The notes beneath the pieces were generated by a model that saw only the letters and a program-made list of their open reading frames with translations, did not search any database and was not told the origin of the DNA. Source: Paralichthys olivaceus (lineage: Eukaryota; Chordata; Actinopteri; Pleuronectiformes; Paralichthyidae). From it: 64,000 nucleotides of DNA. The position numbers were made by a program, and so were the translations under genes. The stretch lies in assembly GCF_024713975.1 (NCBI RefSeq), contig NC_091099.1, forward strand, positions 116,001 to 180,000, written 5' to 3'. Each line of letters starts with the position of its first letter. Position 1 is the first letter of the stretch. This document shows, one piece after another, positions 30,301 to 38,098 of the stretch.

Positions 30301-33300
30301 AAAGTCATATGATATAGTTTGAAGGGATAAACGATTAAATTAACTATTTTACTTGAGCTTCATTTACTACTCATAAAGTTTCTAAAATGTGATTGAGTGA
30401 TTGATTGATTGATTGATTGACAGATAGAGGAGTCAGTGGAGCATGTGATAAGTATGTTAGAGAAGGATAAAGGATGAAGAGGGAAACTACAAAGCATGGT
30501 GTTATCATTGGTATAGAGAGGATGCTCCATTATCTGAAGGAGACATAATAGGACAGAAGATTTAATATGACCCAGAAATCTCTGTTTCACACTCCAACAC
30601 AGTAAGTGACCATCCACCATTAGACCAAAGGAGGAGAAGAAGAAAAATCTATGCAGGACAGGCTGAGAAGGGAAGAGGAGGCAGATCCAGTAGATGATGG
30701 TGGTGCACCTTGGTGTTGGTTGCCACCCGCCAATATACTTAACAAAGAAGAAGACAATGCCATCTTATAGTGATGAGGTCATTTGCAGTCAGAGTCTGTG
30801 CAGTAGTGATCGTGGGGTAAAGCTGGTGTATTGAGGTCCCGCCCATGCATGTGCACAACCAATCAGGGGTCAGCCTGTTTCTACATCATGAATACCTAAT
30901 TAAAACCAAAGTTATCAGAAACACTTAAACAAACATCAACGATCGTGAACAACCTGAAATGACAAAAAACATCTTTGACAAACATTTATTTAATTCTATT
31001 TGATTTTTTAGTTTGGTAATGTCCCATCTGCTAACATGGAGGAAGAGTGATTTGAGCTATACTACAGCCAGGCAACAGGGGTTGGTCTAGATGACTTGGC
31101 TTCACTTTTGGGAGCCGTCATGTATCATCCATCTTTATTTACAGTCTGGTCAAATAATCAAAGATTTATAGTTTCTCCACCACATGAAAGACAAGACGAA
31201 AAAGAAGAACAAGGAGACAGGTGAGTTCTTACCTGTGCGTACTGACGTGTTGCTCTTCTCTCCGTCCGTCCTTGAAATCACTGTTAACTCGTACAAAGTT
31301 CCAGGTTTCAGACCTTCCACCCGACAGAGGAAGTCGTTTTCTCTGAAGGCATCACAGTCGCTGGACTCCTCCCTGTTAACCACGCTAAAGTTACAGGTCA
31401 CACCCCTGGTGGTCAGCGCCAGCTCCACCCAGTGAGAACCAGAGCTTACCTCGCTCACGTTCACTGAGCAGCGAGAAACCATCTGAAACAGGAAGTGATG
31501 AATGCTCAGGTGAATGTGACATCATATTAACAGTTTATAAAGGTCATTGTTAATGAACATGAGCCAGGTACTTTTACTGTGAAAGACAGACACTCAGGTG
31601 AAGACTTACAGGTGGAGCTGAGCTGAGCTCTGGCGTCATTGGACGAACACTTGTTGTCGTTGTTGCAGCGGCTCTAGTGATGGTGGATGTGGTTTGGATA
31701 GTTTCTGTGGAGACAGGCATGGTTTGGATGGTCGTCATTAAGGTTTCCCTGGTGACGGATGTGGCGGTGGCTATGGGTGTGTTTGTTGGACTTGTGCGTG
31801 GGACCGTTGGGTCTGAGGTCATGTTACTCGCAGTTGTTGGAGATGTGGGCAGAGCCGACATGGGTGGGGAGATGGAGATCGCTGAGCTCTCTGTCTGTAG
31901 CATCAAGGTACCTCCAGGTGCAGTCTGGGAGGTGGTGGGCGTGGCTGGAGGATGCATCTCCATGGTTGATGGAGATGTTTGTTGTTTTGATGGAGCTTCA
32001 GTCGCGTCATCATAGCTGAAGGTAAAACCTGTGAAGGCTGAGGACGTGTACGGGTCAGTCCTGAGCTTGGGGACATTTCTTTCTGACGTGTCCGTGGTCG
32101 TCTCCGTGGCGACCTCAGTCAGACCATTAGCAGATGACAGTCCTGTGACTGAAGTTGAAACAGAATCTAAACCTGTAACCGACCTCCGGGTCCGAGGTTT
32201 CGTGACATTGACCACATCTGTCGAAGCTCTGCTGGTTACTGAGTCTGTGGCATGTTGGGCGGTAACATGTGAGTCTGTGACTTGTGAGGCCGTGAAATGT
32301 GAGTCCATGACATGTGAGTCCGTGGCATGTGGGGCGGTAACATGTGACTCTGTGGCATGTGAGGCTGTGAAATGTGAGTCAGTGGCATGTGACTCTGTGG
32401 CATATGAGGCCGTGGCATGTGAGTCTGTGGCATGTGAGGTAATGAAATGTGTGTCCATGACATGTGAGTCTGTGGCATGTGACTCTGTGACATGTGAGGC
32501 CGTGGCATGTGGGGCGGTAACATGTGAGTCTTTGACATGTGAGTCCGTGGCATGTGGGGCGGTAACATGTGACTCTGTGGCATGTGAAGCTGTGGCATGT
32601 GGGGCGGTAACATGTGAGTCTGTGGCATGTGAGGCCATGAAATGTGAGTCTGTGGCATGTGGGGCGGTAACATGTGACTCTGTGGCATGTGGGGTGGTAA
32701 CATGTAATTCTCTGGCATGTGAGTCTGTGGCATGTGACTCTGTGGCATGTGGGGCGGTAACATGTAAGTCTCTGGCATGTGAGTCTGTGGCATGTGAGGC
32801 TGTGGCATGTGGCGCGGTAACATGTAAGTCTCTGGCATGTGGGGCAGTAACATATGAGTCTGTGGCATTTAACTCTGTGGCATGTGAGGCCGTGGCATGT
32901 GACTCTGTGGCATGTGAGGCTGTGGCATGTGGGGCGGTAACATGTGACTCTATGGCATGTGAAGCTGTGGCATGTGGGGTGGTAACATGTGACTCTGTGG
33001 CATGTGGGGTGGTAACATGTAAGTCTCTGGCATGTGAGTCTGTGGCATGTGAGTCTGTGGCATGTGGGGCGGTAACATGTAAGTCTCTGGCATGTGAGTC
33101 TGTGGCATGTGAGGCTGTGGCATTTGGCGCGGTAACATGTAAGTCTCTGGCATGTGGGGCAGTAACATGTGAGTCTGTGGCATTTGGGGCGGTAAGACGT
33201 GAGTCTGTGTCATGTGAGGCAGTGAAATGTGAGCCTGTGACATGTGAGTCTGTGGCATGTGACTCTGTAGCATGTGAGGCTGTAGCATATGAGGCTGTAA

Positions 33301-38098: not shown

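Follow-up and report, generated by a model that had tools for sequence, protein, structure and literature searches.

The receptor phosphatase PTPRB (VE-PTP) exists in human in long and short forms, which arise from start sites in one gene. The longest of these, isoform 3, is described in connection with the variant p.D57N as having a ricin B-type lectin domain (PMC9900141), and among teleosts the zebrafish ve-ptp cDNA FJ435363 is described as a PTPRB with an FN3 array and one PTP domain (PMC3522677). Here we analyse a stretch of 64,000 nucleotides from Paralichthys olivaceus (assembly GCF_024713975.1, contig NC_091099.1, positions 116,001 to 180,000; hereafter the window), and compare the gene on its minus strand with these forms, with the mannose receptor family and with variable number tandem repeat (VNTR) mucins. 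Four exons of the window very probably represent the 5' end of fish PTPRB and encode a lectin-tipped long form of the human isoform-3 kind, the spacer of which has been expanded to a stalk of 859 residues through an in-frame minisatellite. Since human isoform 3 already bears a lectin, a lectin on PTPRB is not new, and the original prediction for this locus erred in taking human PTPRB to start directly with FN3 domains, the basis on which it had claimed novelty. What is unusual here is the long stalk and an apparent split between two gene copies.

Exon structure and identity of the window gene

The gene is assigned to PTPRB by PDB match and FN3 array. Joined translations of the two PTP exons, which hold part of the domain, have PTPRB (2h03) as their best PDB match (expect value, E, 7.6e-51), and the two open reading frames (ORFs) concerned cover consecutive stretches of a single Y_phosphatase profile. 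The fn3 profile exceeds its Pfam cut-off in 14 ORFs, being all 10 of one set and four of 10 in a second, the rest of which match PTP_tm (one), Y_phosphatase (two) or no Pfam family (three); tblastn showed a further frame resembling FN3, around 24.4-24.7 kb, outside the set scanned with Pfam. The exon encoding the first FN3 domain (FN1) falls slightly below the fn3 cut-off of 25 bits.

Upstream of the FN3 array, four exons with compatible phases had been predicted to encode a PTPRB with a signal peptide, an R-type lectin, a Ser/Thr/His-rich stalk of about 860 residues and then FN3 domains, and this chain is confirmed at the coordinates of Table 1. Read on the minus strand, all three acceptors are AG and all four donors GT; the phases agree (bases carried out 1, 1, 0 and 1; bases needed in 2, 2 and 0), and the joined exons amount to 3,271 bases, or 1,090 codons, with zero stops. 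The signal peptide was assigned by eye. A simple home-made matrix rates as strong the stalk acceptor (9.5), the lectin donor (8.3) and both borders of FN1 (donor 7.2, acceptor 6.6), and as moderate the stalk donor (3.2); the stalk exon is separated from the FN1 exon by just 127 bases. A strict scan of the window gene for an alternative first exon, such as a short form might use, gave no candidates, and a looser one gave two on the gene strand against nine on the other; exon 1 itself was listed by neither.

Exon 2 (132 residues) matches Pfam CysR_MRC2_N over residues 3-58 with 29.5 bits, above the cut-off of 27, while Ricin_B_lectin, at 26.4 bits, remains under its cut-off of 29. A single-sequence search of PDB returned ricin-type lectins and MRC2 (E 0.00026-0.0035). 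When exon 2 was combined with a provisional human N-terminal sequence in a two-row profile, ricin-type lectins came top (1.3e-06) and FcRY next (7.4e-05), with mannose receptor, PLA2R, MRC2 and LY75 at lower ranks (0.00035-0.0018). Each of the six cysteines of the exon is paired in the alignment with a cysteine of the mannose receptor CysR domain. The likeness to the CysR domains of this family (MRC1, MRC2, PLA2R, LY75 and FcRY) lies in the profile matches and the aligned cysteines; the difference is that in these receptors FN2 and C-type lectin domains follow, whereas in the fish a mucin-like stalk and FN3 domains follow and Trp117 of the mannose receptor is not kept. An AlphaFold2 model of the exon made without an alignment has a mean predicted local distance difference test score of 39.8, and is unusable for judging a beta-trefoil fold. 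Genome-wide, PF24562 has six matches, which are the window exon and others on C5, C1 (two), C16 and C17; further CysR-type exons are present at C16:6391674-6391826 and C17:1907080-1907469.

The human N-terminus, in the same provisional sequence, shares 45 of 131 positions (34%) with exon 2 by blastp, and the local alignment score of 178 compares with a mean of 27.7 and a maximum of 60 in 2000 shuffles. Its matches in the 64-kb window at E up to 1 are confined to the lectin exon (5.5e-16) and to FN1 (0.001). Its residue 57 is Asp, in agreement with p.D57N. Human isoform 3 and the fish gene are alike in having the lectin upstream of the first FN3 domain (FN3-1); they differ in the spacer, about 97 residues from the last lectin cysteine to FN3-1 in the provisional human sequence against the 859-residue stalk exon with its 15-bp array in the fish.

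Thr accounts for 18.6% of the stalk residues, Ala for 16.3%, Ser for 14.0%, His for 13.4% and Pro for 6.8%, with Thr and Ser together making up 32.6%; the stalk carries five N-glycosylation sequons and the exon has no Pfam match. The stalk would be ready for O-glycans and may be O-glycosylated. The units of its array are in frame, 52 of them are distinct, and their mean pairwise identity is 75%; the commonest five-residue unit is A/V-T-A/D-S/P-H, with His in fifth place in 110 of 122. VNTR mucins such as MUC1 likewise have Ser/Thr-containing tandem units in one exon, and the fish array differs in its short, His-bearing unit and in belonging to a phosphatase. Among the papers listed by literature searches, none was seen to describe a mucin-like stalk on PTPRB, which is weak evidence of its absence from print.

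Stops are absent from the coding frame of the stalk exon, whereas the two alternative frames on its strand contain 12 and 11 and those of the opposite strand 106, 2 and 81; the coding frame is open from a non-repeat start through the array and into the non-repeat residues at its end. Tandem Repeats Finder (TRF) reports indels of 0% in the stalk array at periods 30, 60 and 90 and of 2% at 150, compared with 15, 9, 9 and 8% at periods 27, 62, 89 and 97 in the array of intron 1, where 104 anchors define 103 spacings (63 of 27 bases and 40 of 35 bases).

Table 1. Features of the PTPRB gene in the window (positions counted from the first letter of the window)
Feature	Coordinates	Strand	Evidence
Exon 1: start codon and signal peptide (15 residues), carries 1 base	38053..38098	-	ORF, GTGAGT donor
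Exon 2: R-type/CysR lectin-like domain, phase 1-1, six cysteines and QxW motif	34399..34794	-	Pfam CysR_MRC2_N, PDB matches
Exon 3: stalk, 859 residues	31610..34188	-	122 complete 15-bp units at 34081-32240, then 210 non-repeat residues
Exon 4: first FN3 domain (FN1), phase 0-1	31233..31482	-	Pfam fn3 24.8 bits; aligns with provisional human FN3-1 sequence, E 6e-07
Minisatellite filling most of intron 1; non-coding comparison for the stalk	34878..38017	-	TRF, spacing count
Further FN3 exons and membrane-proximal PTP_tm domain	18231..29490	-	Pfam fn3, PTP_tm
Two exons of PTP catalytic domain	12932..13923	-	Y_phosphatase, profile 127-178 and 172-227 of 234

Counter-evidence and alternative explanations

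A number of observations weigh against the reading of these exons as a lectin-tipped long form of PTPRB with a functional stalk. The joining of exons 1-4 in one transcript is a prediction, based on their phases and on the lectin that human isoform 3 carries, and two of the splice sites are weak, the signal-peptide donor scoring 1.0 and the lectin acceptor -1.1. The Pfam lectin match spans less than half of exon 2. The human comparison offers a strong lead but falls short of a control, because its provisional letters were set down when the exon and the D57N passage were already known. The zebrafish cDNA, which derives from 5' rapid amplification of cDNA ends, is described as having its signal peptide directly before 15 FN3 domains, followed by a transmembrane segment and the PTP domain, and the main text of that paper contains none of the terms 'lectin', 'ricin' and 'mucin' (PMC3522677). 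This cDNA may represent a short form or else the other gene copy; alternatively, zebrafish may be without the lectin, which would weigh against a wide teleost pattern. In the stalk, the unit-to-unit ratio of nonsynonymous to synonymous differences (pN/pS) amounts to 0.82 in the coding frame, against 0.72 in each of the two alternative frames on that strand (2.36, 0.79 and 0.61 on the opposite strand), and since the coding frame is not below these two alternatives, amino-acid constraint on the units is not visible. A repeat without stops arises in 47% of frame-blind draws (P 0.47). Finally, the contrast in indels between the stalk and intron 1 arrays is only moderate, because the two spacings of the intron array, 27 and 35 bp, may go back to a single old variant.

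Neither the absence of stops nor amino-acid constraint was accepted as proving that the stalk is functional, since the P value and the pN/pS of the coding frame both fall short of deciding the matter. It is possible, if rather doubtful, that the array is partly or wholly spliced out as an exonic intron, or that it is a neutral minisatellite in a dispensable spacer, such that the stalk is no functional device; either would be compatible with the reading of the gene as PTPRB. The lack of constraint between units and the ease with which a stop-free repeat is drawn are both consistent with this, as is the minisatellite that occupies most of intron 1 and makes arrays common at the locus. Against it, a single frame is open from the non-repeat start to the non-repeat end of the exon where the other frames of the strand are repeatedly interrupted, and the stalk acceptor is strong.

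A second alternative, which we consider improbable, is that the lectin is a true glycan receptor after the manner of the mannose receptor CysR domain, with sulfated GalNAc as its ligand. CysR membership and the fully aligned cysteines argue for it, but in the column of mannose receptor Trp117 (chain index 117 of 1dqg) the fish has Val and the provisional human sequence Leu. This placement may be off by one residue, because the alignment puts an Arg of Endo180 there with Ser adjacent; the fish, too, has Ser beside its Val. Trp117 is the residue that stacks on the sugar ring in the mannose receptor, and its equivalent in Endo180, a non-binder of sulfated sugar, is Ser155 (PMC4635314). With Trp117 aligned to Val, sugar binding of the mannose receptor kind is therefore doubtful, and the 'glycan-binding tip' of the original prediction was overstated, although a lectin-like domain is indeed present; exon 2 is R-type by descent, with sugar binding of that kind unsupported.

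That the lectin and stalk exons form a separate gene or soluble product, unjoined to the FN3 exons of PTPRB, is very unlikely indeed, for while the genomic basis of the exon joining and a zebrafish cDNA described without lectin or stalk (PMC3522677) would allow it, the phase-compatible chain, the short gap between stalk and FN1 and the description of such a lectin in the longest human isoform (PMC9900141) oppose it.

A second ptprb copy on C23

When the PTP exons were searched against the 588-Mb genome, 29 matches were obtained: two come from the window (96 and 98% identity), two belong to one further close gene at C23:711777-712422 (82 and 72%), and the remaining 25 lie at 39-58%. FN3 domains and PTP exons of the C23 copy were placed by tblastn in C23:705001-765000, and its FN1 in a predicted exon of 418 bases at C23:765692-766109, phase 0-1. 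Stops interrupt some of the FN3 alignments, possibly because these run through introns, and a TGA flagged in one PTP match does not occur in the tblastn alignment of that copy. The copy as a whole, C23:705001-766109, has a long acidic insertion in its FN1 exon and about 38 kb between the last FN3 match and the membrane-proximal exon. About 7.5 kb upstream of its FN1 there is a PTPRR-like PTP exon, with RAB21 further on; PTPRR is the best one-stretch PDB match of that exon, and the two-domain PTPRS and LAR chains rank higher with two stretches.

No lectin was detected at the C23 copy. Searches of C23:755001-805000 with the lectin, the stalk ends and the provisional human N-terminus produced noise only (E above 0.9), and on the gene strand from FN1 to 773 kb none of the listed open frames of at least 75 codons is stalk-like. 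The two-row lectin profile recovers the window exon at 5.4e-75 and reaches E 0.79 at best on C23, where none of the six PF24562 matches lies. Exon 2 itself, searched genome-wide at E up to 10, has four matches, none of them at the C23 ptprb locus: the exon itself, C1 (0.016), C23 around 14.86 Mb, where the match contains stops (0.2), and C8 (1.1). Two candidate signal-peptide exons for a short form are listed, one of which, of phase 0, lies at C23:767699-767764. It is still conceivable that a lectin exon at this copy has diverged or is missing.

With no lectin detected at the C23 copy, it may be that one copy provides the long form and the other the short form. We suggest, tentatively, that the forms split after a fish genome duplication, the window copy being lectin-tipped with a stalk of about 860 residues and the C23 copy starting at FN3-1, and that the stalk is a length-variable VNTR spacer which could tune the height of this endothelial phosphatase above the membrane. 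The original prediction was silent both on this second copy, where no lectin was detected, and on the composition of the stalk as mostly an in-frame 15-bp minisatellite.

Neighbouring features and implications of the long form

Besides the arrays in Table 1, there is a long tandem array at window 8932-10674 that has open frames on both strands, with KST repeats in one, and is probably non-coding, and another at window 16013-18011, within the PTPRB gene, that has long open frames in all three plus frames. Genes at window 2921-4033 and 43735-57410, both on the minus strand, resemble FRS2 and ZFC3H1; no Pfam match was found in the two ORFs scanned for these neighbours.

In the proposed mechanism, the spacer between lectin and FN3-1 would have been lengthened by the in-frame 15-bp minisatellite within one exon, and the lectin tip would stand well clear of the FN3 rod, where it would act as a docking module for proteins or glycans. 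A mucin-like spacer of such length could outreach the FN3 rod, and the stalk might serve as a spacer either by keeping the phosphatase from tight contacts or by exposing the tip in the glycocalyx. The lectin-bearing form of PTPRB seems to be little discussed in the literature. If the division between copies is true, fish would have the long form on a gene copy of its own, such that long and short forms could be removed separately, and the stalk would provide a natural test of the effect of ectodomain height on a receptor phosphatase.
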